The notes below the pieces were generated by a model. That model saw only the letters and a list, made by a program, of their open reading frames with translations, did no database searches and had not been told where the DNA came from. Of a stretch of 64,000 nucleotides of DNA, positions 1 to 14,091 are shown in pieces (positions within the stretch are counted from its first letter, which is position 1; each line of letters begins with the position of its first letter). Source of the stretch: Pseudanabaena sp. PCC 6802 (GTDB lineage: Bacteria > Cyanobacteriota > Cyanobacteriia > Pseudanabaenales > Pseudanabaenaceae); assembly GCF_000332175.1 (NCBI RefSeq), contig NZ_KB235911.1:1-64000 (forward strand), written 5' to 3'. A program made the position numbers and the translations under genes.

Positions 1-1242
1 TATGCTCTGATCCTGTTACTGAGCGGTGGAGTCTCCGGAGCTTTTGTATCGCAAAATCTAATGCTGTTTTTCCTGTTTTACGAAGTAGAACTAGTACCGC
101 TGTATCTGTTAATTGCCATCTGGGGTGGAGCGCGGCGGGGCTACGCGGCGACAAAATTCCTAATTTATACAGCCGTATCCGGCATTTTACTTGTAGCGGC
201 TTTCTTTGGGACAGCGGGTCTGGTGGGTTCGGAACTTCAGTCAGGTCTGAGTTTCGACTTAGACACGCTCCAAACACAGGTTCTGCCTATAGGAACTCAA
301 ACCATCTTGCTAGTGATGCTTTTGGTGGCATTCGGCATTAAAATTCCGATCGTGCCTCTACATACATGGCTGCCCGATGCTCACGTAGAAGCTTCCACAC
401 CCGTATCTGTCTTACTTGCAGGCATTCTACTGAAGTTAGGCACCTATGGCCTCCTTAGATTTGGACTTCAATTATTCCCAGAGGCGTGGCAAGAGATCGC
501 GCCGATACTCGCAACCTGGGCGGTAATCAGCGTCATTTACGGCTGCCTCACCGCCATCACCCAAACCGACATGAAGAAAATGGTCGCTTACAGTTCCGTC
601 GGCCACATGGGTTACATTCTCTTAGGAAGCTCGGCAGCTTCATCACTTTCACTACTGGGCGTGTCATTACAAATGGTGAGCCACGGCTTAATTTCCGCCT
701 TACTATTCCTGATTGTGGGCGTGATTTATAGCAAGGCGGGGACGAGAGATATCAATAATCTCAACGGACTGTTCAACCCGGAGCGAGGAATGCCTTTAAT
801 TGGCACCTTAATGGTGCTAGGTGTGATGGCCAGCGCTGGGATTCCAGGCATGATGGGATTCATTTCCGAATTTATTCTATTTAGAGGCAGCTTTACCGTA
901 TTTCCAGTGCAGACGCTTTTGTGCATGATCGGTACTGGCTTGACTGCTGTCTACTTCTTGATCTTGATCGATCGCGTGTTTTTTGGCCGCATCTCCATAT
1001 CTACACTCGATATCGATCGCCCCATCAGTCTGCAACCCACCCTACCGCGAGTCACTTGGAAAGAACGCACGCCCAGCATTATCCTGGCGATCGCAATTGT
1101 GGTGCTAGGCTTGCAGCCCAGTTGGGCAGTGCAGTCGATCGAGCCTACGACTTCAGCCATCGCTAAGACAATCCCAGTTCGCACGGCGATCGCACCTACT
1201 ACATCAAACATCGCATCAAAGATCGCATCGAACTTGCTCTAG
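1..1242 (+). CDS. ndhD4: NDH-1 subunit NdhD4 (partial, 5' end outside window)
   Basis: Proton-pumping antiporter-like membrane subunit of the NDH-1 variant that drives CO2 hydration at the thylakoid membrane. The frame is open from the first base, and the reading before the first ATG (position 61) continues the family's hydrophobic N-terminal helices, so the gene starts upstream of the window. The NdhD/NuoM hallmark is visible: the FYEVELVPLYLL helix with its essential Glu, followed by the LPDAHVEAS and KKMVAYSSVGHMGYI segments. cupB follows after 16 bases, the gene order of the constitutive ndhF4-ndhD4-cupB operon, and this pairing is why I call it NdhD4 rather than NdhD1/2/3. ndhF4 would be expected just outside the window. 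Confidence 0.9.
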   Translation, partial: YALILLLSGGVSGAFVSQNLMLFFLFYEVELVPLYLLIAIWGGARRGYAATKFLIYTAVSGILLVAAFFGTAGLVGSELQSGLSFDLDTLQTQVLPIGTQTILLVMLLVAFGIKIPIVPLHTWLPDAHVEASTPVSVLLAGILLKLGTYGLLRFGLQLFPEAWQEIAPILATWAVISVIYGCLTAITQTDMKKMVAYSSVGHMGYILLGSSAASSLSLLGVSLQMVSHGLISALLFLIVGVIYSKAGTRDINNLNGLFNPERGMPLIGTLMVLGVMASAGIPGMMGFISEFILFRGSFTVFPVQTLLCMIGTGLTAVYFLILIDRVFFGRISISTLDIDRPISLQPTLPRVTWKERTPSIILAIAIVVLGLQPSWAVQSIEPTTSAIAKTIPVRTAIAPTTSNIASKIASNLL

Positions 1243-1258
1243 ACACGAGGACAAAAAA

Positions 1259-2398
1259 ATGACAACTACGAGCACTAACAGAACGATCGGCAATCCCACC
1301 GCTCCCATCTTGGAACGTTTAGAAGCAGGTGGTGCCTTACTGCCAGACAATCCCCAAAATCTCAAGGAAGTGGTGGGCATCCTCAAGAGTTATGGTGTGG
1401 TTTTAGATGCCTACAATCGCAATCTGATCGCGATCGCCGACCGCCAGTTCCTCAACTTCTTTCCGTTCTTCAAATACTTCAACGACAAGGTAGAGATCGG
1501 TCAACTGCTCAAGCACTGGTGGCACGATCGGATTAATTACGAGTTTGCCGAATATTGCATGAAGGCAATGCTCTGGCACGGCGGCGGCGGCATGGATGCC
1601 TATTTGGATACGCCGGAGTTCAAACAACTGGCTGAGAAAGCGATTCAAGCCAAGTTTAAATGGAATCCGTTGATTATGGGGCTGCACCGCGCTTTCCCAG
1701 AATTCCTGCCAGAGCAGATCCGCCAGATGTGCTACTACAGGGCATTAGGAGTATTCTGGTCAGTGATGGCTCCGATGTTTCTGAATCTCAGCGATCGCTA
1801 CGATCGAGGTGAAATTAAAAATATCCCCGATGTGGTCGCGCACGTCCTCGATGGCTTAGTAGAAGCTGCCAATCTCCCGGTTGACTATACAGTTAATATC
1901 GGCGGTCAGGCTTATGAAATTATGCCCAGATCTGCAGGTCTCACTTTCCTAATGGATACTGCTGTTCCCTATGTCGAAGCCGTCTTTTTCCGCTCGTTCC
2001 CATTCCGAGGCACGGTTTCCTACAACGCTCAAGCATACCAAATCTCCAGCGATCCTGCCGACTTTAACTATGGCGCTCTCTATGCCGATCCGCTACCCGT
2101 AGGTGGCGCTGGCATCCCACCCACATTACTGATGCAGGACATGCGCCACTTTATCCCAGACTATCTGCAAGAGATCTACGATCGCAGTTCGCGTGGCGAA
2201 GCCGACGTGCGGGTGCAAATTTGCGTCTCCTTCCAAAAATCGATGTTTTGCGTTACTACCGCTGCCATTAAGGGCTTAGCACCGCATCCAATGGACACGA
2301 CCGATCCAGAAGAAAAGCAAGCCAACCGCGTCTATTTACAAAAGTGGTTGAAGCGCCTGGAAAAGTCGCGCCTACTAGACGTGCAAACTGACACATAG
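1259..2398 (+). CDS. cupB: CO2 hydration protein CupB (ChpX)
   Basis: Peripheral, carbonic-anhydrase-like subunit of the NDH-1MS' complex, which converts CO2 to bicarbonate at the expense of electron flow. The 379-residue length fits CupB and is shorter than CupA (438 aa, also in this window), which has an extra stretch before the conserved His-rich block. The block KHWWHDRIN (H86, H89, R91) followed by MLWH (H107) aligns with LFHHWWHDRIN (H130, H133, R135) in the window's CupA. In CupA family members the first His and the Arg are the reported metal-site residues; I rely on memory for that. It sits 16 bases after ndhD4 with the purine-rich sequence GAGGACAAAAA before the ATG, so it is the last gene of that operon. 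Confidence 0.93.
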   Translation: MTTTSTNRTIGNPTAPILERLEAGGALLPDNPQNLKEVVGILKSYGVVLDAYNRNLIAIADRQFLNFFPFFKYFNDKVEIGQLLKHWWHDRINYEFAEYCMKAMLWHGGGGMDAYLDTPEFKQLAEKAIQAKFKWNPLIMGLHRAFPEFLPEQIRQMCYYRALGVFWSVMAPMFLNLSDRYDRGEIKNIPDVVAHVLDGLVEAANLPVDYTVNIGGQAYEIMPRSAGLTFLMDTAVPYVEAVFFRSFPFRGTVSYNAQAYQISSDPADFNYGALYADPLPVGGAGIPPTLLMQDMRHFIPDYLQEIYDRSSRGEADVRVQICVSFQKSMFCVTTAAIKGLAPHPMDTTDPEEKQANRVYLQKWLKRLEKSRLLDVQTDT

Positions 2399-2501
2399 TA
2401 CACCAAAACCAAAGTTTTGGAGGGGGGTGGAGGGGGTGAAACCCCCTTCTGGGGGCTTTGCCCCCATTCCCCCATGTTGCAAAATTTATGATTTGCAACA
2501 C
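2399..2501. repeat. Family B palindromic repeat, copy 1
   Basis: It begins at the cupB stop codon. One end is the hairpin CCAAAACcaaAGTTTTGG and the other is GTTGCAAAatttatgATTTGCAAC. Between them lie G-runs that pair with C-runs (GGGGGCtttGCCCCC). A second copy lies at 13436-13537 in the opposite orientation. It probably also works as the transcription end of the ndhD4-cupB operon, which is an inference from its position. Confidence 0.75.
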
Positions 2502-2535
2502 TAGTTTATCGAGTCAGAGGTTTTGAGAAAAACTT

Positions 2536-3248
2536 TTAAAAACTGAGCCAGTTAAAAATCTGCTCAGAAGTTAATTCTAATTCAAGACCATTGAGCACTG
2601 GAATGCGATCGCTTCCTTGGAAAATTTGGATGCGGCGATCGCCAAACACAACTAAAATATTCCGATCTTCAGGATCGAGCAACCAACCCAACTCCGTGCC
2701 ATTTTCGATGCAATGTAATAAATTTGCTAAGACCTTATAGCGTTTTTCAATTGAGAACAGGTTTTATTGACGGGGTGAAGGGGTTCCACACGGCAGTGGC
2801 TCTAGCGGGGAACCCCCAAGACCGCCCTGCCTCCCCTTCTTGGGGGCAACGCCCCCAAACCCCCTTCTCGTTTTCATCTGAAAACCGCTATATTTTGTCT
2901 TTGTTCGTGAGAGAGAATTTCAATCGCCCAGTCAGGATGAGTCTCAAAACGGTTCGCAACTTCACCTAAGTCATTACACGGGATTCTACCCCAACGAAAT
3001 ACAGACAGATCGGGAACGATAGAAGCTCCAGCAAAATTACAGCGCAACTCTGGAAAAGCGATCGCGAGCTTGGCAGGTCGCGTAGATTGGTTAATAGTTT
3101 CGCAAAGCGTACCTTGTAATAAGCTATGTTTTCCTTGCGGCATAGCTTTTTGAGTAATTTTCTCGTTGAGAAATTCGGAGGCAGGCTTAGTCTCAGGCAG
3201 ATTGAGAAATGCTTCTAAGCTAATCGGCTTTGTTGATGTGGTTACCAT
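2536..3248 (-). pseudogene. Uma2-family endonuclease gene split by a miniature element
   Basis: The N-terminal half starts at 3248 and reads a typical Uma2/DUF820 protein (ETKPASEF, MPQGKHS, VPDLSVFRW, DWAIEILS) until residue 118, where it runs into the repeat at 2736-2892 and stops soon after. The C-terminal half resumes beyond the repeat with KVLANLLHCIENGTELGWLL and ends at 2536. Removing the repeat and one of the two flanking TA dinucleotides rejoins the halves in frame as EQRQN-KVLANLL, giving about 185 residues, the usual family length. Uma2 proteins have a PD-(D/E)XK-like fold and are abundant in cyanobacteria; their role is poorly known. The split copy is presumably inactive. Confidence 0.88.
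2736..2892 (-). repeat. Family A MITE, copy 1 (long form, 157 bp)
   Basis: The ends are TATAGCGTTTTTCAATTGAG and its near-inverse CTGAAAACCGCTATA, flanked by a duplicated TA. It carries an extra ~45-bp module (CGGCAGTGGCTCTAGCGGGG and following) that the standard 113-bp copies lack and that is present twice in the copy at 53356. It interrupts a Uma2 gene. Confidence 0.92.
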
Positions 3249-3369
3249 TATTTCACGGTTGTTTCAGAAATTAAAGGTTGCAAATTAATGAATGTGCCCT
3301 CACAGAAACCTACATGATTAGTAGATTTTACAACGCTTACAAACGTCTTTGACTTTACAACCGGAACCC

Positions 3370-3482
3370 TATAGCGTTTTTCAATTGAGAACAGGTTTTA
3401 TTGCCGGGGTGAAGGGGTAGAACCCCTTCTTGGGGGCAACGCCCCCAAACCCCCTACTCTTTCCGATCTGAAAACCGCTATA
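3370..3482 (-). repeat. Family A MITE, copy 2, with an adjacent solo end
   Basis: Standard 113-bp copy with TATAGCG...CGCTATA ends and internal hairpins GGGGGCaacGCCCCC and AGGGGtagaACCCCT. A solo right-end fragment (ATTGAAAAACGCTATA) lies at 3505-3520, suggesting decay of a neighbouring copy. This stretch (3249-3606) between the Uma2 remnant and the exporter gene holds no gene that I can support. Confidence 0.9.
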
Positions 3483-3606
3483 GAGCAGGCATCGATTCAA
3501 TGACATTGAAAAACGCTATACGATCGATCGAGTAATCACTGAGAGATTTCAAGAATTAGCTTTTTACATATTAATTCCAGATAATGTTGCTTTATCTGTA
3601 TTTAGG

Positions 3607-5769
3607 TTATGGACGCAGAAAATCCAGGTGGTTCCCCGGTTTACTGTGCAGATCGTGGAGAGTTCCTTCCAAAACTAGCTCGCCGCGATCTAGCACTACA
3701 AGCCAATCCGCTCGATTAATTACTCTGGGACGGTGACTGATTAGAACTGTTGTCTTACCCCTGCGATGTAACAATAATCGATCGAGTACTTGGGCTTCGC
3801 TGGCAGGATCGAGACCAGCAGTCGATTCATCCAAAATCAGTATGGGTGGATCGCTAACAATCGCTCTAGCGATCGCCAGCCGCTGCCGCTGCCCGCCGGA
3901 TATGTTGGCACCGAACTCACCGAGTACCGTTTGATATTTATCCGGTAGATTGCTGATAAAATCATCAGCTTCAGCAATCTGACAAGCTTTCACAATCTGC
4001 TCGAAAGTCGCGTGCGGAGCACCTAAACGGAAATTTTCTAGAATAGAACGGCTCCAAAAATGAGGTTCTTGTGGGATTAGAACTACCTGTTGGCGAAGGC
4101 AATCGAGGGCGATATCTTGCAGGTTATAGATACCAATGCGAATGTTGCCAGATTGAAGATCGTACAGGCTGGCAATTAATTTCGCCAAACTGCTTTTCCC
4201 ACAGCCAGATCTTCCAATCAAAGCGGTAATCTTACCACCTGGAATAGTTAAAGAAAAATCTGTCAGCAAGTTCACTCTACCAGCATAGTGATAATTAAGT
4301 CGCGTACAAGCGATATCTGCATCGCTAGGAATAGCAACCCAGGGTTTGGGAGCGCGGCCTTGGGTTTCGGGGGTAGAATCAATCACTTCAGCAAGACGCT
4401 GGACTGCAGTATTGGCGCGAATAAAATCACTAACAAAGCGAACGACGACATTGAGGAATACGAGGAAGTTTGCATTCATCGTGTTGAATGCCAGTAGCTG
4501 ACCGATGCTGAGTTCCTGACTAATTACCAAGTGGCTGCCAAACCAGAGCAAAATCACATTGCCCACTCCTGCCACAAAAATGGAGAACGTGCGATTGATA
4601 ATACCAATTTGAATTGTTTTAAAAGTGACATTGGCTAAGCGTCCGAATCGACTTTGAAATTCCTCCCAAAATTGTGGGGCGGCACTTGTGGTTTTGACGG
4701 TAAGCGCCCCCTTAAACGTCTCCACCAAAACACCTTGATTCTCTGCTTCTATTACCAATAACCTGCGGATGCGATGGCGCAACACGGGCATCAAAACAAT
4801 CGTCGATATCGTCATAAATGCCGCGATCGCTAGCGCCACAGCCACTAATTTCCCACTGTAGTACAGCATTAAGCCTAGAGATATGACAGCAACAAACAAT
4901 TGGCTGGGTAAACTCACCACCACCTGGGAAACTAGCTGGTTAATTTCTTCAATATCTCGCAAACGACTGACTATTTCTCCACTGCGATGGGATTCGTAGT
5001 ATGAGAGTGGCAAGCGTAAAATTTTTCGCCCAAACTCCAGGATTAGTCCCAGTTCCAGCCGCTGGGCAAAGTGGGCAATTAGATTAAATTGCACGAGCTG
5101 CAAGCTACTACTCATGAGTTGCATTACCCCTACAGCCGCGACAATTCCCACTAGCAATTGACGATCGCCCCGTACCAATACATCATCAGTGAGGATTTGA
5201 ATTAAAAATGGCAAGGCAAGCGAGAGTAAGCCCAGTATGAGATTAATCAGTAAAGCTTCGCCCAAGATAGAACGATAACTCCAGACAGGATTGAGAAATC
5301 GCCAAAAGCTAGCGATCGCATCGTCCTCTTTCTCTGTAAAGCGGATTGGATCTGGCTCTAATAAGAGCGTTACGCCATGCGTCCAACCTGCTAACAGTTC
5401 TTTTCTAGACAGATAGAGAATCCCAACTGCTGGATCGGCAATGACGTAGTTTTGCCCTCGCTGCCCGTAGAAAACTACATAGTGATTGCCTTGCCAGTGA
5501 ATAATTGCTGGTAGAGGCAGTTCCTTCATCCGATCCAGGATCTGTGGGTCTGCTTTAACGCCTCTGGAGTTGAACCCCAGTGTCTCTGATCCTTGAATCA
5601 ACCCTAGCAGTGTAGTACCTAGTTGCCCAGTACCAACGGCTTCGCGGATATGACTGATGCTAAAGTTACGTCCATAATATTTGGATATTGTTGCCAAACA
5701 AGCAGCACCGCAATCTTCTTCACTATGCTGTAGGACGTTCTGGTATTTCATTCTCAATATTTTTCCCAT
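3607..5769 (-). CDS. C39-peptidase-containing bacteriocin-type ABC exporter
   Basis: Dedicated exporter that cleaves a double-glycine leader and pumps the core peptide out of the cytoplasm. The N-terminal C39 papain-like protease shows the catalytic Cys in EEDCGAACL, the His in HWQGNHYVVF and the Asp in VIADPAVG. About six membrane helices follow, then a nucleotide-binding domain with Walker A (GRSGCGKSS), signature (SGGQRQRL), Walker B (ILILDEST) and H-loop (LISHRP). At about 720 aa this is the full PCAT architecture. I chose the ATG at 5769; a TTG 14 codons upstream lies inside a hairpin, and an ATG at 5751 is also possible. A matching substrate gene lies 163 bases upstream on the same strand, and an HlyD adaptor lies nearby. 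PteB of Synechococcus elongatus, which exports small double-glycine biofilm proteins, is the closest described cyanobacterial analogue that I know of. Confidence 0.93.
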   Translation of the reverse strand: MGKILRMKYQNVLQHSEEDCGAACLATISKYYGRNFSISHIREAVGTGQLGTTLLGLIQGSETLGFNSRGVKADPQILDRMKELPLPAIIHWQGNHYVVFYGQRGQNYVIADPAVGILYLSRKELLAGWTHGVTLLLEPDPIRFTEKEDDAIASFWRFLNPVWSYRSILGEALLINLILGLLSLALPFLIQILTDDVLVRGDRQLLVGIVAAVGVMQLMSSSLQLVQFNLIAHFAQRLELGLILEFGRKILRLPLSYYESHRSGEIVSRLRDIEEINQLVSQVVVSLPSQLFVAVISLGLMLYYSGKLVAVALAIAAFMTISTIVLMPVLRHRIRRLLVIEAENQGVLVETFKGALTVKTTSAAPQFWEEFQSRFGRLANVTFKTIQIGIINRTFSIFVAGVGNVILLWFGSHLVISQELSIGQLLAFNTMNANFLVFLNVVVRFVSDFIRANTAVQRLAEVIDSTPETQGRAPKPWVAIPSDADIACTRLNYHYAGRVNLLTDFSLTIPGGKITALIGRSGCGKSSLAKLIASLYDLQSGNIRIGIYNLQDIALDCLRQQVVLIPQEPHFWSRSILENFRLGAPHATFEQIVKACQIAEADDFISNLPDKYQTVLGEFGANISGGQRQRLAIARAIVSDPPILILDESTAGLDPASEAQVLDRLLLHRRGKTTVLISHRPRVINRADWLVVLDRGELVLEGTLHDLHSKPGNHLDFLRP

Positions 5770-5792
5770 ATCTGACTGCTCGCAAGATGATG

Positions 5793-5823
5793 GGAGCCGA
5801 TCGCGACTCAATCGAGCGGCTCC
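5793..5823 (-). promoter_or_regulatory. Hairpin between peptide gene and exporter gene
   Basis: Inverted repeat GGAGCCG/CGGCTCC with a 17-base spacer lies in the leader between the peptide gene and the exporter, without a T-run. Partial terminators or processing hairpins are common between an abundant precursor-peptide gene and its exporter. That role is an inference. Confidence 0.45.
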
Positions 5824-5932
5824 ATCACGAGTCGTGTATGTCAGCTTGAGCCATCTTCTGCAATCTAGACAGGGTTACATGTCTAAATAGCAAATCGCGC
5901 TCAAGGCTCTTCTACAGATACATTAAGAAAGA

Positions 5933-6067
5933 TTAACGACGTCCACCTTTGTCATCACCAGCATCATGCCCAGGAGGATCGTCAGCACCGTGTTTGCCAC
6001 CATTGATAGCAGAGGCTTCTGCTGCCGTCAGTTCGATCAGAAGTTTGCTCTTTTGATTATCTTTCAT
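5933..6067 (-). CDS. Double-glycine precursor peptide (44 aa), likely exporter substrate
   Basis: A 45-codon reading frame with a good ribosome site (GGAG six bases before the ATG). Residues 9-24 (LLIELTAAEASAINGG) fit the classic double-glycine leader, with hydrophobic residues at the usual spacing, an acidic residue, and Ile-x-Gly-Gly directly before the cut. Predicted cleavage after Gly24 releases KHGADDPPGHDAGDDKGGRR. This 20-residue core is rich in Asp, Gly, His and basic residues and has no Cys, Ser or Thr, so lanthionine or thiazole formation is impossible on it. The gene is followed on the same strand by a C39-type exporter, the enzyme class that recognises such leaders. It could be a bacteriocin, a signalling or biofilm peptide, or a metal-binding peptide; I do not recognise the core. 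Confidence 0.85.
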   Translation of the reverse strand: MKDNQKSKLLIELTAAEASAINGGKHGADDPPGHDAGDDKGGRR

Positions 6068-6416
6068 GATTTTCTCCGTAAAAAGTTATTTTGTAGTGAA
6101 CGAGCGGTTACATATCCAAAGACAACTCTCATCATGCCAGCTATAGATGAGGGGAAATTGGACAAAATGCTATTGTGAATCGAACAGCGATCGCGCAGAA
6201 TCCTTGGCCAACTAGAAACTAGCGATTTTGCAGAGAATACTACTTCAGCATTCCCAAGATAAGCATGATAAAGTGTTAGGTTTACCAATCGATTCAAAAG
6301 CTTCTATGTAACCATCTAGGGGTATTACGGAGTTACCCTGATTCTGGATCACAATTTCTGAAAATTTTTTGCTTAACCACACAACTCCTACCAACAAAGG
6401 ATTAGAGGTTTTCCTG
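6068..6416. other. 349-bp leader region upstream of the peptide gene
   Basis: No convincing gene is seen on either strand. A 77-codon frame on the minus strand overlaps the peptide start and has no recognisable content. Because the anti-sigma gene ends at its far edge, this is the likely promoter region of the peptide-exporter operon. GTAAC...GTTAC repeats are present around 6310-6340, but I cannot assign an element. Confidence 0.4.
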
Positions 6417-7163
6417 TTACAACTCGCTAGTCATCACGAGAAATTTTTTCTTAGGATCGGAAGAGTTAGTGGTTGATTCACGCGATATCCGCATGAACTT
6501 CACAGCGCTGCTATATTCTTTAACAGGTATTGGAAGTACGCTGACAATTTGACCAGTCGAAGTAGTATTGAACTTGCCACAGAGAATTTTCTTATCCTGG
6601 GTAAACGCCCATAAGTAATATGCTTCTCCTTCTGGTAAGGTCGGTAGATTGTGGAGACCAAATAACGCTTTACCAGTGTGTAAGTCCAATATAACTTTCC
6701 CTGAGGCGTTTACAGCAGCAGGCGTGCCCCTCAGTTCAAACACATAAGTTTCCACCACCTCTCGATTGCTATCAAACGTCATCTTGACCGAGGTCAGTTT
6801 TTGGCGCAAGTAATAATTGTCAACTCCGAGTGCTAGAGTTGCTAAAGCAATAGCGGCAAGGACAACTTTCCCCCAGTCAGGTTTAGGCAACCGTCTAGCT
6901 CTAGGCAATTCAGCCACAGAAGATCGTACTGCCCCCATAATCTTTGTTTTCAGATGAAGAGGTGCAGTTAATCTAGGGGAGAGGTGCGCCATCAGTCCCA
7001 TGACTTCTTGCAACTGTTCTATGCGAGCGAGCGATGCAGGATTTTCCTGGAGGTAACGTTCGAGTTCCACCGTTTCTTCAGGGGAGAGCGCATTAAGAAC
7101 ATATCCTGCCGCTAACTCTTCCAAGTGTTCTGGTAATGGCTGTTGGGAGGTTGGTTCAGGCAT
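6417..7163 (-). CDS. RskA-type anti-sigma factor
   Basis: Membrane-anchored anti-sigma factor of 248 aa. The N-terminal cytoplasmic part has the zinc-free anti-sigma fold signature (ELAAGYVLNALSPEE, then ERYLQENP). A single membrane helix lies around residues 98-117 (VVLAAIALATLALG), and the C-terminal part matches the RskA domain (GTPAAVNASGKVILD, LPEGEAYYLWAF). The ATG lies 8 bases after the sigma gene's stop, so the two are co-transcribed. In such pairs the anti-sigma holds the ECF factor until regulated proteolysis releases it. The next genes on the same strand are the double-glycine peptide and its exporter. Confidence 0.9.
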   Translation of the reverse strand: MPEPTSQQPLPEHLEELAAGYVLNALSPEETVELERYLQENPASLARIEQLQEVMGLMAHLSPRLTAPLHLKTKIMGAVRSSVAELPRARRLPKPDWGKVVLAAIALATLALGVDNYYLRQKLTSVKMTFDSNREVVETYVFELRGTPAAVNASGKVILDLHTGKALFGLHNLPTLPEGEAYYLWAFTQDKKILCGKFNTTSTGQIVSVLPIPVKEYSSAVKFMRISRESTTNSSDPKKKFLVMTSEL

Positions 7164-7170
7164 AGAATAT

Positions 7171-7755
7171 CTAGCTCATCAGGTCTTGTAGTGATTGTCT
7201 TAGCTTAGTAAACCCCAAACGAAACCAACTTTTAACAGTGCCGACGGAAACTTCCAGATGCTGGGATATTTCCTGTTGTGTCAGCCCACCAAAGTAGGCC
7301 ATTTCAATTGCTATACGCTGCTTGTCTGGCAAATCCTCTAGCGCAGATCGGACGCGCTGAGCTACTTCATCAGAAGCTACTTCATCTAGAGAAACTATTC
7401 CAGGTTGTCCAGTATTAACCTCCTTACCCGATCGCTCCAGCATGTTTAAAGTTTTCTTTTGCCATCGCAAGCGATCGATTGCCCGCGATCGCACCAATAT
7501 CATCAAAAAAGTCTTGAGCGATCCTCGCTCTGGGTTGTAAGTACAGTTTTGCCATAAGTTCAGAAAAACTTCTTGAAGCAGATCTTCTGCCTCTTGATGA
7601 TTTCTGAGAATTTGCCATGCCAGGCTATACATGAGATCTCCGTAGCAGTCATATAACTGCTCCAAAATAGAGGGATGTTTTGCTTTTAGCGCCCTAAACA
7701 GCTCTAAATCCGAGAGCGGGTTTTCCACAGGAGATGCAAAGTAGCCGATAGTCAA
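7171..7755 (-). CDS. ECF-type sigma-70 family RNA polymerase sigma factor
   Basis: A 194-residue protein with sigma region 2 (YSLAWQILRNHQEAEDLLQEVFLNLW) and region 4 (LTQQEISQHLEVSVGTVKSW, a helix-turn-helix), joined by a short linker. It lacks regions 1 and 3, as ECF factors do. The start is a TTG with GAGA a few bases upstream; the only nearby ATG is out of frame. It forms an operon with the RskA-type anti-sigma gene, a pairing that is standard for this group. It may direct transcription of itself and of the adjacent secretion genes; this is inferred from the layout only. Confidence 0.92.
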   Translation of the reverse strand: MTIGYFASPVENPLSDLELFRALKAKHPSILEQLYDCYGDLMYSLAWQILRNHQEAEDLLQEVFLNLWQNCTYNPERGSLKTFLMILVRSRAIDRLRWQKKTLNMLERSGKEVNTGQPGIVSLDEVASDEVAQRVRSALEDLPDKQRIAIEMAYFGGLTQQEISQHLEVSVGTVKSWFRLGFTKLRQSLQDLMS

Positions 7756-8051
7756 TTGGATCTCATTTAACCAGAAAATCAGAGTACTCTCTAACCGTTT
7801 TCCACTTTCCCCTGTAAGGAAGTAGTCCTACTTGCTCCTTCATCCCATGACGTTAGTGGCCATATAAAACAACTACACCATAATTAACTATCGCTACTTA
7901 ATAATGTATACGGCAGACAAAATCACTTGGATCACTGTCTAGCATTAATTTTTGCAATTATTGTGATCCGAAAATAGCCCTTCTTCGTAAGTATAGTGTT
8001 ACAGAGTTCGGTATGGGTCGCAAAGGTATTGATTGCAACCTAGGGTGTTAG
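7756..8051. promoter_or_regulatory. Divergent promoter region between sigma and HlyD genes
   Basis: No gene is seen. It holds an inverted repeat AAGTAG-TC-CTACTT at 7820-7833, extended imperfectly by AAGGA/TCCTT on the outside. It lies 65 bases upstream of the sigma start and could be an operator for either direction. The HlyD gene is preceded by AGGGTGTTAG as its ribosome site. Confidence 0.4.
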
Positions 8052-9386
8052 ATGCTTAACGAAACCAATTTTGACTTTCTCAAGCCCATTCAAAGTGAAG
8101 AATTTCTGCCCCCGCTAGGTCGATGGACGGTAATGGGCGGGCTGTTTATTTCTACTGCATTTGTGGCAACAGTCACCCTTGCAGCCGTTATTCGGTATAC
8201 CCCCAGTGTCAGAGTCTATGGCACAATTCGCCCAACCGGAGAAATAAGGCTTGCCCAGTCAGCAATTGAAGGGATTGTTAGCAGCATCCACGTCCAAGAA
8301 CATCAGACGATAAAACGGGGTCAGGCGATCGCCACGGTTGACAATTACCAACTCCAGACCAAACAAAAGCAGCTAGAGGCGTCCATCCAAAGCAGCCAGG
8401 CACAACTGACTCAAATAGCCACTCAAGTAGTTGCTCTAGATCGGCAGATGGCATCAGCCGCCCATTTGATGCATCGCACCGTTGCCTCTGCTCAAGCAAC
8501 CCTCAGCCACAATCAACGCGACTATCGAGATCGGCAAATTACCACGCAGGCAGACGTGCAAGAAGCCTTATCTGCCATGGAGATGGCAAAGATAGAGATG
8601 CAGCGCTATCAAAAATTGGCAAACACTGGAGCCATTACCGATCTGCAAATTCAGGAAAAGGAACAGGCATTCAAAATTGCCCAGGCTCGCCTGGAGAAAG
8701 TAAAAGCGGCACTCGACCCCAGCAATGCTTCAGTCGCGATCGCGACAGAACAAATCGCCCAGGAACGAGCTAGGGGAGAAGCAGCACTGGCTGCGTTGCT
8801 TCAAGAACGCGATCGCGTACTCAGCAGACAAATCGATTTAAAGAATCAACTCGATCGCGATCTCCAGGAACTGCAAAAGATTAAAAGCGATCTGCAAAAG
8901 AGAACAGTTGTGGCACCAATCGATGGAACAGTGCTCAAACTAGATCTGCGCAATCCAGGTCAGATGGTACAGCCCGGTACTGAGATCGCCCAAATTGCCC
9001 CCAATCGCGCTCCACTCATTGTGAAGGCTCTAGTACCATCGCGAGATATTAGCAAGATCCAGATCTGCCAGGCAGAAAAGGCGACAGACTGTCAGGAGGG
9101 CAGGGTACAACTGCGAGTGGCTGCCTATCCTTACCCGGAATACGGTACGCTCAACGGTGCGATCAGATCGAGATCGCCTGACGCGATCGCTACTCAAAGT
9201 AATGAAATCGGTACGCCAAGCCAGTACTATGAAGTGACTATTCAACCCGAAAAGCTGTATTTAGAGAAGGGCGATCGTCAATATCCAATTCAAGCTGGCA
9301 TGGAAATTTCCGCAGATATCCTCTCTCGCGAAGAGACTGTTTTGACTTTCTTGCTAAGAAAGACAAGACTATTAGCAGGTTTTTAG
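8052..9386 (+). CDS. HlyD-family periplasmic adaptor protein
   Basis: Membrane-fusion component that links an inner-membrane ABC exporter to an outer-membrane channel. The 444-aa protein has one N-terminal membrane helix (about residues 28-48), a biotinyl-lipoyl-like half motif (VYGTIRPTGEIRL, GIVSSIHVQEHQTIKRGQAIATVD), a long coiled coil (about 90-300) and the closing half motif plus beta-barrel (TVVAPIDGTVLKLDLRNPGQMVQPGTEIAQI). This is the architecture found with C39 ABC exporters. It is transcribed away from the sigma/anti-sigma/peptide/exporter block, sharing its promoter region with the sigma gene. Its likely partner is the C39 exporter. Confidence 0.92.
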   Translation: MLNETNFDFLKPIQSEEFLPPLGRWTVMGGLFISTAFVATVTLAAVIRYTPSVRVYGTIRPTGEIRLAQSAIEGIVSSIHVQEHQTIKRGQAIATVDNYQLQTKQKQLEASIQSSQAQLTQIATQVVALDRQMASAAHLMHRTVASAQATLSHNQRDYRDRQITTQADVQEALSAMEMAKIEMQRYQKLANTGAITDLQIQEKEQAFKIAQARLEKVKAALDPSNASVAIATEQIAQERARGEAALAALLQERDRVLSRQIDLKNQLDRDLQELQKIKSDLQKRTVVAPIDGTVLKLDLRNPGQMVQPGTEIAQIAPNRAPLIVKALVPSRDISKIQICQAEKATDCQEGRVQLRVAAYPYPEYGTLNGAIRSRSPDAIATQSNEIGTPSQYYEVTIQPEKLYLEKGDRQYPIQAGMEISADILSREETVLTFLLRKTRLLAGF

Positions 9387-9515
9387 GGCTAACAGGGATA
9401 TTCGCAGTACTCCGACACCCACTTTCTTTAGGGAGTCGTGAAGTGGAGCGGCACCGGAGCAAATCTTTGATACAATCGAGGCATTGCACGGTGGCGAACC
9501 TTTCAAAGGAAAAAG

Positions 9516-9725
9516 ATGAAAATTACCCTTGATATACCCCAGGTCGAACTGGAAAGATTAATTGCGAGCGCGATCGCGGAACCGCGTATAACCCTCTATG
9601 ACGTAAATTGGCAGCAATACCAAAACTTTATCGACCTGGTCTCCAGACATATCCAACCCGATCGAGAACCTGAAATGGTCAGGGCATGGCGCAAACTGGT
9701 AAGCACGTTGCAAATCGATGAATAG
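9516..9725 (+). CDS. Small conserved protein preceding a recombinase (69 aa)
   Basis: Acidic/hydrophobic 69-residue protein with no domain I recognise. It has a good ribosome site (AAAGGAAAAAG before the ATG), and its last 8 bases overlap the start of the recombinase gene, so the two are translationally coupled. The close coupling suggests an accessory or dosage role for the recombinase; this is inference. Confidence 0.65.
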   Translation: MKITLDIPQVELERLIASAIAEPRITLYDVNWQQYQNFIDLVSRHIQPDREPEMVRAWRKLVSTLQIDE

Positions 9726-10692
9726 CTATCCTCTCCCTTCACTCACACAGAGTACTCATACGGATGAGAGACGGTCGGGCGATCGCCCGACCGACCTGAG
9801 ATCTAGATACATCCACGATTTTTTGGCATCGCGCCATCTCGCTCCCAATACGCGCAAGGCTTATACCAAAGAATTAAATCGATTTCTCACCTGGAGCAAT
9901 CTTCCACTTCCTGAGATCGGGACTAAGCAGATCGTTCAATTCAAACAATATTTAGAAGCGGAGCGACATCTCAAACCTGCTTCGATCAATCGCGCGATCG
10001 CGGCGATCGCGAGTTTTTACAACTGGCTAATCCAGGCTTATCCCAGCCAATACAGCCAGAATCCCACGCAGGCGATTGACTTCGCATCCGTGCCTGTTCC
10101 CATCGCTCGAGATTTATCAGAATCTGAGGTTATGCGCCTGTGGCATGTGGTGACAAATTCTAACGCTTCAGACTCCGTACAGTTGCGCAACGCCGCATTA
10201 TTATCTATTCTCAGCCACGGGTTGCGCGCTAGCGAAGTAGCGGGTTTAACTGTCGGCGATTTTGACGGCAAGCGATTATACGTTCGAGTTGCTAAGGATG
10301 ACTCCACAGGGACAGTACCTTTGAACGGACAAGCTAGAGAGCACATTACCAACTATCTCAACTGGAGAGAAAAGCAGTTTCAAAAACTAGCAGACTCATC
10401 TCCCCTACTACTTTCTTGCAGCAATCGCAATCAGGGAGAAGCTCTCAGCTATGAGGGCATTTACAAAATTGTGGCAGCGTGGGGGATAAAGGCAGAGATT
10501 CCAAACTTACATCCCCACAGGCTGCGACACACCTATGCTACCAAGCTATTGCTGCTAGGCATGGATAGCTATCTGGCTCGCAGTCTAACCCGCCACCAAT
10601 CAGAGGCCAGCTTCAATCGCTATGCCAAGCGAGCCAGGTCTATAGCTGCTGAAAAAGCTTTTTATCAAGCGATCGGCGAGGAGAATGATTAG
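9718..10692 (+). CDS. Tyrosine recombinase / XerC-like integrase
   Basis: 324-residue site-specific recombinase. The N-terminal SAM-like core-binding domain is at about residues 27-115 (RHLAPNTRKAYTKELNRFL). The catalytic domain shows the first Arg in SHGLRASEVAGL, the HPHRLRHTYAT box (His-x-x-Arg), the second His in LTRHQSEASF and the Tyr nucleophile in FNRYAKRA. It overlaps the stop of a small upstream gene and converges with a Uma2 gene, with which it shares 4 bases. It could be a mobile-element integrase or a resolvase of a plasmid-like replicon; no att site was identified. Confidence 0.92.
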   Translation: MNSYPLPSLTQSTHTDERRSGDRPTDLRSRYIHDFLASRHLAPNTRKAYTKELNRFLTWSNLPLPEIGTKQIVQFKQYLEAERHLKPASINRAIAAIASFYNWLIQAYPSQYSQNPTQAIDFASVPVPIARDLSESEVMRLWHVVTNSNASDSVQLRNAALLSILSHGLRASEVAGLTVGDFDGKRLYVRVAKDDSTGTVPLNGQAREHITNYLNWREKQFQKLADSSPLLLSCSNRNQGEALSYEGIYKIVAAWGIKAEIPNLHPHRLRHTYATKLLLLGMDSYLARSLTRHQSEASFNRYAKRARSIAAEKAFYQAIGEEND

Positions 10693-11279
10693 AATGCATC
10701 AAACCGCTCGACCTTTAAAACAAATCCAGGCAAAACTGCTTCCCCAGATAATGCCGTTGGCAGTTGGCGAATCTCTTTGGGTTGCCCTTGACGATAAATC
10801 TCTACTTCCTGCGCTTGGGGATTAAACATCCAGGCAAGTCGCACGCCGCTGTTCATATACTCTTGCATCTTTTGTCGTAACGTCTCCAGCTTATCTGTAG
10901 GAGAGCGCAGTTCGATCGCAAAATCTGGGGCGATCGGTGGGAATTTTTGGCGCTGCTCGGGAGCGAGTGCTTGCCAACGAGAGATCTCAACCCAAGCCAC
11001 ATCTGGCGAGCGATCGCCCCCACCCGGTAACTTAAATAGCGTAGAAGAGCTAAACACCTTACCTAATTGCGTCTGACGATTCCAGATTGCCAAATCTGTA
11101 CCAATCTCTATTTCATTGTTGCCGCTCTCTCCTCCAACTGGTGACATAACAATCAAAGCTCCTTGGGCATTCCGTTCGAGCGGAATATCGGGATTGTTGA
11201 TACAGAGTTGATAAAACTGCTCGTCGCTCAGATGTACGTGGGTGAGATCGAATACGAGTGGCAGTGTGAGCGAAGTCAT
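10689..11279 (-). CDS. Uma2-family endonuclease (intact)
   Basis: 196-residue DUF820/Uma2 protein with the usual landmarks: LSDEQFYQLC, MSPVGGESG near the N-terminus, SPDVAWVEISRW (acidic active-site residue), APDFAIELRSPTD (second acidic segment) and GVRLAWMFNPQAQEVEIYR. Length is typical, with no breaks. The fold is PD-(D/E)XK nuclease-like; the cellular role is not established. It is convergent with the recombinase gene. Confidence 0.88.
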   Translation of the reverse strand: MTSLTLPLVFDLTHVHLSDEQFYQLCINNPDIPLERNAQGALIVMSPVGGESGNNEIEIGTDLAIWNRQTQLGKVFSSSTLFKLPGGGDRSPDVAWVEISRWQALAPEQRQKFPPIAPDFAIELRSPTDKLETLRQKMQEYMNSGVRLAWMFNPQAQEVEIYRQGQPKEIRQLPTALSGEAVLPGFVLKVERFDAF

Positions 11280-11370
11280 AACAACACCTAGTCAATGGGT
11301 GAGTTTCAAACTATTATGCCATACTAGCTATAGCCATAGACAGATCTGTTAGGCCAGGGGGGTGTGGGGG

Positions 11371-12282
11371 TGTTACCCGACACGCGGTTAGAACATGTAG
11401 AACGACACAAGATTTAACCCTCCTCAGGGGAAGTAAATGGTACACCAGAATTAAGTCAGGATTTGAGATCTCAGGAGGTGTATATGCCCAGTGCAGTAGC
11501 TGTCCCCATCCGTCAACGGATGATAGAACTGCGTCAACAAGGCAAAAGTTATAGAGCGATCGCAGAGGCATTAGGACAATCGCGCCACAGTGTGCGGCAA
11601 ATCTGTCGGCGCTGGAGCCAAGGAGGAGACAGTGCATTGACCCCGGATTATCAACACTGTGGACATGGAGGGATCCGCTCAGAGCGATTAATTTGGCGAG
11701 CCGCAATTTAGCTGAAACGACGTCACCCCGACTGGGGCGGCGGCATCATCCGGGTGCAATTGCAACAACGCTGGCCACAACAGCAAATCCCGAGCGAACG
11801 GACATTGCAGAGGTGGTTTGTGCCAGCAGGGGTGTCCATCCCATTTTATCCCGCTGTCAGGGGACGAACCCGCTTAGAACTCCATCCTGATTTACTCATC
11901 TGCACTCGTCCCTATCGACGCTCCCAGGAAGCACAACTGTGGTCGTTACAACGGGTTTACACCTACCTGGCGCAGGGTTGCTGGCAACGGAAGGTGGATG
12001 CGTCTGGCAGAATCTCTCTCTACAACCGCAATTACACTGTTGCTCGTGCTCTAGCCAAACACCCCGTATGGGTGCGCTTTGATGCCTCCACTGGAGATTG
12101 GCTCGTTTTCGATGACGCTGGTCGCGAAGTCGCACGTACATTGGCATTGGAAATTAATCCGACCGTTATCTGTCAATTGCAACAGTATCGTTCCACAGCT
12201 AAGTATCGTACCCTCTTCCCCAAAACTACTCCTTGATGTAACCTGATGTCGCACACATGAGTGAACTGCGTGTCGGGTAACA
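11371..12282 (+). mobile_element. Insertion sequence with 19-bp terminal inverted repeats
   Basis: The ends are TGTTACCCGACACGCGGTT (11371-11389) and AACTGCGTGTCGGGTAACA (12264-12282), inverted repeats with one mismatch. The flanks GGGGG|IS|GGGG against the five-G run of the uninterrupted family C copy suggest a 4-bp target duplication. Its only gene is a damaged IS481-like transposase, so the copy is non-autonomous. 912 bp. Confidence 0.8.
11484..12236 (+). pseudogene. Broken IS481-like transposase
   Basis: It starts at an ATG preceded by AGGAGG. The N-terminal helix-turn-helix region is clear (IELRQQGKSYRAIAEALGQS, then RQICRRWSQGG). An in-frame TAG at 11709-11711 interrupts the frame, which then continues (LKRRHPDWGGGIIRVQLQQR, RTLQRWF). 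The C-terminal part (RKVDASGRISLYNRNYTVAR, WVRFDASTGDWLVFDDAGRE) matches the region after the catalytic core of such integrases. The DDE catalytic core that should lie between these parts is absent, so there is an internal deletion as well as a stop. It cannot be an active transposase. Confidence 0.75.
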
Positions 12283-12468
12283 GGGGCTGCGCCCCCACGC
12301 AGGGGTGAAACCCCTGCACCCCAAAAATAAAACCCGTTCTTAAGTGAAAACTGCCATAGCTTGATTTCTCTAAGGTGAATGCGATCGCTCTCTTGAGAAC
12401 ATTGCGATCTTTTCTACGTTTTGGTGTGACTTAGATCGCAGGTATTATGACTCCGGCAACAATAGAGC

Positions 12469-12738
12469 CTACAAACTTTTTGCATATTCGTGCCAGTAAG
12501 CCGCAGTCTCAGAAGTCTGCTTCAAAACCACATCTGGAAGTAAGTCTGCTGGCCAAAAAGCAAGATATAGCGTTTTTCAATTGAGAACAGGTTTTATTGA
12601 CGGGGTGAAGGGGTAGAACCCCTTCTTGGGGGCAACGCCCCCAAACCCCCTACTCTTTCCGATCTGAAAACCGCTATAATAGAAATCTACAGGTTCTTCT
12701 TCCTCAAGAATAGTATCGACTTCTTTGCCGCGATCCAT
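12469..12738 (-). pseudogene. Small gene split by a MITE (52 codons when rejoined)
   Basis: From the ATG at 12738 the frame reads MDRGKEVDTILEEEEPVDFY and then enters a family A element. Beyond the element the frame resumes with YLAFWPADLLPDVVLKQTSE and ends at 12469. Deleting the element plus one flanking TA restores a single frame (VDFY-YLAFWPAD). I do not recognise the protein: it is short, acidic at the N-terminus, and aromatic in the middle. The start could be slightly upstream, overlapping the end of the next gene. Confidence 0.6.
12566..12678 (-). repeat. Family A MITE, copy 3
   Basis: Standard 113-bp copy with TATAGCG/CGCTATA ends, almost the same sequence as the copy at 3370. It splits a small reading frame, with a TA duplication visible on both sides. 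Confidence 0.92.
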
Positions 12739-12755
12739 GTCACGAGCACAGCAGA

Positions 12756-13355
12756 TTATTGTACAGTATTCTTTACGTTCTTCAACTCCTCAGCGTTAAG
12801 CACTTTCGGGACAACAATCGGAGTACGGGATTCCATAACAAAGAAGGGGGTTTGTTTGTACCTACCATCAAAACGCGCTTTCAGCATCATACCGATCGCG
12901 CGCAAGGTGCCAGATAGAACTCCTGCTGGTTTGGGCTTATTTTCCCCGATCGCCGATTCGGTGTTGACGTACATTCTGACAGGCCCCAACACGCTGTCCA
13001 ACGAAGTTGGATCTGAAATCAAGCAGGTATGGATAACACCAATGAAAGAGAGGTTGGGGGTTGAAAGCGTATTACCGATTGGAGTATTACAACACGCAGC
13101 GTACCATCGCAGCATCCCATTCGCTGTAAGACGCATACAGGCCAAATTCTCGATGCCTTCGGTAAACGTGATATTAGCAGGGATGGTCTGAATAATGTTA
13201 GTTCCTCCCACTTCGTCGAGTATTTCAGGCTCTCGTTTTAGGAAACGGGCGAAGGCTTGGCAATCCGCACAGTAGCACACACATCTGTTTACTGCTTGAC
13301 TTTGGTTCAGCGTGCCCTTGAGTTTGCCACAATGACAACGAATCGAGTTAGCCAT
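12756..13355 (-). CDS. DUF6151 / GFA-like zinc-binding protein
   Basis: 199-residue protein resembling the GFA (glutathione-dependent formaldehyde-activating) beta-fold group. The N-terminal RCHCGKLKGTL and CVCYCADCQAFARF supply the paired zinc-binding cysteines, and RWYAACCNTPIGNT gives the second set. These are the features of DUF6151 proteins. No enzymatic activity is established for the group. It has no clear operon partner; downstream lies a MITE-broken small gene whose start nearly touches this stop. Confidence 0.8.
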   Translation of the reverse strand: MANSIRCHCGKLKGTLNQSQAVNRCVCYCADCQAFARFLKREPEILDEVGGTNIIQTIPANITFTEGIENLACMRLTANGMLRWYAACCNTPIGNTLSTPNLSFIGVIHTCLISDPTSLDSVLGPVRMYVNTESAIGENKPKPAGVLSGTLRAIGMMLKARFDGRYKQTPFFVMESRTPIVVPKVLNAEELKNVKNTVQ

Positions 13356-13435
13356 AGTTTTTTGTGCCTCTTCTTAAAGAACCTGCGATCGTACGCAGTA
13401 TAACGGTCGCAATCACCGGCCTCAGATAAACCTCA

Positions 13436-13537
13436 TGTTGCAAATCATAAATTTTGCAACATGAGGGAATGGGGGCAGAGCCCCCAGAAGGGGATTTCAC
13501 CCCCTCCACCCCCACCAAAACTTTTGTTTTGGTGTAC
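13436..13537. repeat. Family B palindromic repeat, copy 2
   Basis: Reverse-orientation relative of the element after cupB. One end is GTTGCAAATcataaATTTTGCAAC and the other is ACCAAAACttttGTTTTGGT, with GGGGGCagagCCCCC in between. Confidence 0.75.
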
Positions 13538-13582
13538 TAGCCACAAACCAGCATACTTTTAAGTTCTGGTGCATTGCGGTTG

Positions 13583-13993
13583 TTATGCATTGCTTTGATG
13601 TTTCAGAGAAGGTACTAAATGCATCATAAAGTCACGCTTACCTATTGGTGCTCCTGCCATACGCAGGATATTGTACGCCGTTGTTATATGGAAATAAAAG
13701 TTTGGCATCAGAAAATCATCTACATACGAAAGTCCAGATAATTCTGCATATAGCCCTTGTCCAAGATCGAGCCGATTGAGTTCTGACAGTTTAGAATCAG
13801 TAATATTAATACTTGCCAACAACTCCTTAGTCGATGAAATATGACCACGCGCCTCATCTAGAGATGCTACATCGGGGTTCAAGTTATTCGCCGACTGTCC
13901 TAAGCACCACAATGCGAAATTGCGAGGCTGATTGCAAGTAAATGCGATTTGTGTGCCGAAAGGAAACATATCGGGCGCTATAGCAGTTTTCAC
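13583..13993 (-). pseudogene. DUF1993 protein, N-terminus lost to a MITE
   Basis: The body matches DUF1993: APDMFPFGTQIAFTCNQPRN near the start, then TKELLASI, FYFHITTAYNILRMAGAPIGKRDFM. Full-length members carry about 40-45 further residues before the (L)APDMF motif. Here those codons are replaced by the end of a family A element, which supplies the only possible start (MKTAI). Beyond the element the sequence contains an in-frame stop and no clear N-terminus. Either the gene is dead or a shortened protein is made from within the element. Confidence 0.72.
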
Positions 13994-14091
13994 TTGAGAA
14001 CGGGTTTTATTTTTGGGGTGAAGGGGTGGAACCCCTTCTTGGGGGCGTTGCCCCCAAACCCCCTACTCTTTCCGATCTGAAAACCGCTATA
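13979..14091 (-). repeat. Family A MITE, copy 4
   Basis: 113-bp copy with TATAGCAGTTTTCACTTGAG at one end and CTGAAAACCGCTATA at the other. It abuts and truncates the DUF1993 gene. Confidence 0.9.

Follow-up and report, generated by a model that had tools for sequence, protein, structure and literature searches.

We analyzed a 64,000-nucleotide stretch of the Pseudanabaena sp. PCC 6802 genome (NZ_KB235911.1, positions 1 to 64,000; hereafter the window) and a five-gene locus within it. Judging from the sequence, this is probably a double-glycine (GG) peptide export locus of the cyanobacterial C39/HlyD kind, which is controlled by a dedicated, autoregulated switch made of an extracytoplasmic function (ECF) sigma factor and an RskA-type anti-sigma factor. 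The genes for the sigma factor, the anti-sigma factor, the precursor and the exporter follow one another in this order on the minus strand, and hlyD lies on the plus strand, divergent from the sigma gene. A preliminary description of this DNA had reported the five genes and read them as a peptide secretion locus. The list of open reading frames (ORFs) and the Pfam domain content confirmed the positions of the genes, and the domain content, together with dozens of related loci that share the exporter, HlyD and GG precursors, supported the reading. Each of the five frames is uninterrupted and full length, and the domain scores are strong. The genes and the putative promoter sites are as follows.

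7171..7755, minus strand: ECF sigma factor; Sigma70_r2 and r4_2 (Pfam); best solved relative SigK (4nqw_A)
6417..7163, minus strand: RskA-type class I anti-sigma factor; Pfam RskA_C (1.1e-9); solved RskA (4nqw_B)
5933..6067, minus strand: GG precursor of 44 amino acids (aa); leader pattern, GGAG, homologous leaders in L014 and in G612 (L210)
3607..5751 (ORF to 5811), minus strand: C39-ATP-binding cassette (ABC) exporter (peptidase-containing ABC transporter, PCAT); PF03412, PF00664 and PF00005; PCAT1; start as in L211
8052..9386, plus strand: HlyD-family periplasmic adaptor; HlyD_3 (1.5e-17); TIGR01843 (2.1e-40, below its cut-off)
6326..6352, minus strand: putative ECF-type promoter site of the precursor gene, GTGATCC-N16-CGTA; equivalent exact site in G612
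7909..7935, minus strand: putative ECF-type promoter site of sigma-rskA; equivalents in L152/L183, L160/L184, L161, L169 and L210
7963..7989, plus strand: putative ECF-type promoter site of hlyD; equivalents before the HlyD remnants in G559 and G612

Control of the locus by the sigma/anti-sigma pair had previously been proposed as an inference. The proposal was backed by three exact ECF-type promoter sites at the locus and by other genomes, where the motif again precedes sigma homologues; in the genomes G612 and G559, part of the gene order is conserved along with these sites. The motif was derived from the non-coding regions before the sigma gene, hlyD and the precursor gene and from the region of a paralogous sigma/RskA pair in the same genome. 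The 11-bp gapped word GTGATCC-N16-CGTA was common to four of five regulatory regions; in 400 shuffles, a word was found in at most two. The exact motif occurs five times in the 5.62-Mb genome (reversed control, none), that is, three times at the locus, once at C5:1449297 before the RTX gene of the paralogous operon, and once at C5:2227253. The last copy falls within a coding gene and was regarded as a chance occurrence. The copies at the locus are letter-perfect and correctly oriented before the three expected transcription units, at 258 nt (from the motif end) from the ATG of the precursor and 62 nt from that of hlyD. Further, the motif stands upstream of the sigma gene itself and is conserved among homologues, suggesting autoregulation. 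A consensus scan for sigma-70 promoters and terminators found nothing above chance.

Because the motif was derived without other genomes, these serve as a test of it. Of 53 regions upstream of sigma homologues, 4 carried the motif with no more than one mismatch (one exact), and 200 letter-permuted motifs gave a mean of 0.095 regions and a maximum of two at the same threshold. When two mismatches were allowed, 24 of the 53 regions carried the motif in the sense and 10 in the antisense direction; genomes of the same family showed TCATCC-N16-CGTA at this level. In G612, the order of an hlyD remnant, sigma (57%), RskA (44-47%) and precursor is the same as that in the window; the motif is exact between RskA and the precursor and has one mismatch before the sigma gene and in the divergent direction. 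HlyD is represented there by a 79-aa N-terminal remnant (L210 6139-6378), 32 nt behind the divergent motif. No close exporter was found in this 85%-complete assembly, in which the contig ends 434 bp past the precursor. The G559 genes for sigma (51%) and RskA (40%) point away from hlyD, and the motif is present in both directions; HlyD (L183 4437-5545) lacks its first ~120 residues and the ECF promoter site remains. No precursor was found beside RskA in G559, and its C39 transporters are all distant. Another exact ECF motif of G559 (L198 2175-2201, minus strand) lies in the sense direction within a long-type C39-ABC gene, possibly by chance.

The sigma factor consists of the r2 and r4_2 domains only and is followed by the anti-sigma gene after 7 bp, so that the two are predicted to form an operon. 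RskA has one likely membrane span (approximately residues 94-115, by eye), and 4nqw_B was its sole match in the solved-structure search. The closest solved relatives of sigma and anti-sigma are thus SigK and RskA of one complex, 4nqw, from Mycobacterium tuberculosis, which has a different regulon and belongs to a different phylum. The same genome contains a paralogous operon (G000:C5 ~1449297-1451585; L140 7798-10086), in which an RTX gene is followed by sigma (70% identical to that of the window) and RskA (53%). The RTX protein (237 aa) has calcium-binding repeats (DDRGNHFEI), and its gene is preceded by the exact promoter motif. In the RskA tree, constructed without the later-found G612, the proteins of the window, its own paralogue and G559 grouped together (99/95), and G420 joined them (98/89). 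ECF/RskA pairs are common in cyanobacteria, and the window's pair forms a subclade distinct from SigG/SapG; a separate sigma/anti-sigma pair of the same genome (L146) grouped with same-family pairs. The sigma gene opens with TTG at 7755 (alternative, GTG at 7728), because the ancestral ATG (7766) is one base out of frame compared with the paralogue. Following this one-base change in length, the ancestral ATG now runs into a stop (window 7755-7766).

The precursor consists of MKDNQKSKLLIELTAAEASAINGG, a 24-aa GG leader (5996-6067), and KHGADDPPGHDAGDDKGGRR, a 20-aa core (5936-5995), and a GGAG ribosome site lies 6 nt before the ATG. The leader has L(-12), S/T(-11), E(-8), a hydrophobic residue at -4 and GG at -2 and -1, and the frame lies upstream of the C39 exporter gene. 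A strict regular expression for the leader plus ATG had a single match in the 64-kb window and none in 60 dinucleotide-shuffled windows. The alignment of precursors across relatives envisaged in the preliminary description revealed a related leader in L014 and a related leader and core start in G612. The former belongs to a precursor just 5' of the closest exporter relative, that of Cyanomargarita (62% over 24 aa), which reads MKDVSKRTLLVEITPEEAVAINGG and continues into a core quite unlike that of the window. Conservation thus extends to leader and exporter, but not to the cores. The G612 precursor (L210 8181-8369; MNNNLVNQFLTDLTIQEAAVINGG-RRGRGADDAPGDDHGGRRGG...) is 47% identical over a 34-aa stretch that extends into the first part of the core; the two cores have GADDxPG and a GGR stretch in common. 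It was reached only via the RskA search; searches of 386 genomes of the phylum with the precursor protein and a core DNA pattern yielded no convincing relative. Plasmid searches for RskA and the precursor gave no match. No family model matched the precursor, and its mRNA leader had no unusual structure (z 0.06) and no match to an Rfam family.

The core is rich in Asp, Gly and His, lacks Cys, Ser and Thr, and has Ala and Pro as its only hydrophobic residues. With this composition, the peptide is unlikely to be a classical pore-forming bacteriocin or a lanthipeptide. As a conjecture, a matrix, metal-binding or signalling role would be more plausible. Two further groups of GG-leader frames were observed in the same genome. 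One is an array of four short MSNI-type frames (L151 9376-12894; G000:C5 ~3227.4-3230.9 kb), with no C39 domain within that 18-kb stretch; the other is a pair of 80-82-aa precursors (L143 5344-5929; G000:C5 ~259.8-260.4 kb; SDLFDDxETYLQ...GG) located ~2.6 kb from another C39-ABC transporter.

The exporter is a full-length single chain with a C39 peptidase domain, an ABC membrane domain and an ABC ATPase domain; it is a short-type protein that lacks the cNMP-binding N-terminus. Among solved structures, PCAT1 is the best match (E ~1e-112), and the Gln, Cys, His and Asp of the peptidase align with it. The most likely start of the chain is 5751 (MKYQNVLQ..., matching L211), not 5811. The nearest relatives are exporters of Cyanomargarita (76%), Microcoleus (72%) and Nostoc (~70%), and in the tree the window protein was sister to the Cyanomargarita protein of L014. 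In the sampled genomes of its own family, no exporter at E <= 1e-150 was found beyond this genome, which suggests acquisition by horizontal transfer. Many related loci encode one or more GG precursors next to the exporter, as well as HlyD, which is often divergent. The preliminary description had called the locus complete; this holds for precursor, exporter, adaptor and regulator, and no outer-membrane channel is encoded in it. Near two close exporter relatives, L197 (4342-4668, plus strand) and L050 (5228-5437, minus strand), there are GG-leader peptides whose cores (KYPSDxEDGG or KFPSDQEDGG) resemble microviridin precursors; from these cores, the exporter family may serve several peptide classes.

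Several observations weigh against a dedicated switch. The sister exporter locus, L014, has neither a sigma gene nor an upstream ECF motif, indicating that exporter and switch have separate histories, and no ECF site was found directly before the exporter gene of the window. G559 and G612 both have a truncated HlyD, and neither assembly showed a close exporter. The five-gene order expected in related genomes recurs in part in these two genomes, and in full it was found in this genome only among those sampled so far. Further, the predicted 5' leader of the precursor mRNA is long (~250 nt), the start of the sigma gene is a weak TTG following the one-base shift relative to its paralogue, and the motif was discovered in the same locus that it explains, its derivation having drawn on no other genome. 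Some of these points would fit a standard GG-peptide export locus with ordinary sigma-70 promoters, in which an unrelated ECF/RskA pair was inserted between HlyD and the precursor. No sigma or anti-sigma homologue was found at 80 related exporter loci (0/80), the sister locus carries neither pair nor motif, and such pairs are frequent in cyanobacteria. An unrelated insertion is nevertheless unlikely in view of the three exact, oriented motif copies with just two more genome-wide, the same sigma-RskA-precursor order with the motif in G612, the divergent HlyD with the motif in G559, and the absence of sigma-70 sites above chance in the consensus scan.

Decay of the locus into a non-functional system is less likely still. 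The one-base shift that damaged the sigma start, the N-truncated HlyD of G559 and the HlyD remnant of G612 would be in line with decay, but the window frames are intact, their domain scores are strong and the three promoter sites are letter-perfect. Moreover, the paralogous sigma factor could also serve these promoters, because the RTX gene upstream of it has the same motif. We regard it as highly improbable that the 44-codon frame is not a gene and that the exporter serves other precursors. No family model matches the frame, its core pattern was seen in no other sampled genome, and similar exporters serve several precursors; against this stand a leader match beyond chance, a ribosome site, a dedicated promoter site, the homologous leader before the L014 exporter, and the related precursor with a similar core beside the G612 sigma/RskA pair.

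In the favored reading of a dedicated, autoregulated ECF/RskA switch, RskA would hold sigma at the membrane until an envelope signal releases it, presumably through proteolysis of RskA. RNA polymerase with sigma would then start at GTGATCC-N16-CGTA before sigma-rskA, giving positive feedback, and the same sigma would drive the hlyD and precursor promoters. The exporter is probably transcribed by read-through from the precursor promoter. Its C39 domain would cleave behind Gly-Gly. The 20-aa Asp/Gly/His-rich core would then be exported by the ABC/HlyD complex together with a TolC-like channel whose gene lies outside the locus. A wider and rather doubtful possibility is that a dedicated ECF/RskA module governs the export of polypeptides that are rich in Asp, Gly and His and may bind metal, one copy serving the GG peptide and HlyD and its paralogue the RTX protein. 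In such a module, RskA may sense the product, its ion or the state of the export channel, forming a secretion-sensing feedback loop.

The exporter part of the locus belongs with the cyanobacterial bacteriocin clusters of Wang, Fewer and Sivonen (2011; PMC3140520) and, by content, with their group III: it shares the short-type C39-ABC protein, HlyD and a GG precursor, and no SurA, LanM or additional C39-less ABC protein was seen nearby (exporter and HlyD by Pfam; flanking frames of window 1-14,000 by eye, with Pfam on a subset). The window locus has one precursor, compared with several in group III (mean 3.89), and an internal ECF sigma/RskA pair with a dedicated motif, whereas PMC3140520 mentions no sigma factors. 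The analogy to EbfG1-4/PteB of Synechococcus elongatus PCC 7942, drawn in the preliminary description, holds for the precursor and exporter type (small GG proteins processed and secreted by a C39 transporter) and no further: the EbfG core is unrelated to that of the window, and the available part of the report describes no sigma pair with EbfG and states that EbfG regulation is unknown (PMC4997328).

The regulatory part resembles MibX/MibW of the microbisporicin cluster of Microbispora corallina. That cluster encodes an ECF sigma factor and a co-transcribed anti-sigma factor, and an ECF consensus precedes several of its genes, that of the sigma factor among them (PMC4973701). Likewise, an ECF-type motif lies upstream of hlyD, the precursor gene and the sigma gene in the window, with its own consensus in place of GAACC-N15-GCTAC. 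In contrast, microbisporicin is an actinobacterial lantibiotic with modifying enzymes, and no lanthipeptide modification enzymes were found among the reading frames flanking the window locus; further, the microbisporicin precursor operon has no ECF site and needs MibR (PMC4973701), whereas the window precursor has a site. The cyanobacterial SigG/SapG system also comprises an ECF sigma factor with a downstream anti-sigma gene; it is widely conserved and linked to low-temperature and light stress (PMC2758279), unlike the distinct subclade of the window. No report of an ECF-controlled GG-peptide locus in cyanobacteria was found in the literature searched, with subscription journals outside its scope. 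Thus, the exporter, HlyD and precursor are of a known kind, and ECF/RskA control with a site before the precursor itself would be the new part. Cyanobacteria are predicted to encode hundreds of GG peptides, and little is known about what turns them on (for EbfG, PMC4997328). The locus provides a defined regulator, a peptide and three exact promoter sites. Regulation can thus be examined directly: expressing the single sigma gene should induce precursor and adaptor together. The promoter signature may also be used to find further members.

Two other features of the window were observed. On the 3' side of hlyD (9516-10692), a 69-aa frame overlaps that of a 324-aa tyrosine recombinase; these may be a remnant of mobile DNA adjoining the locus. 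A dispersed G+C-rich repeat with GGGGCAACGCCCCCAAACCCC has seven exact copies in the 64 kb (chance expectation, none), at positions 2843, 3433, 12629, 18892, 25110, 53385 and 63736.

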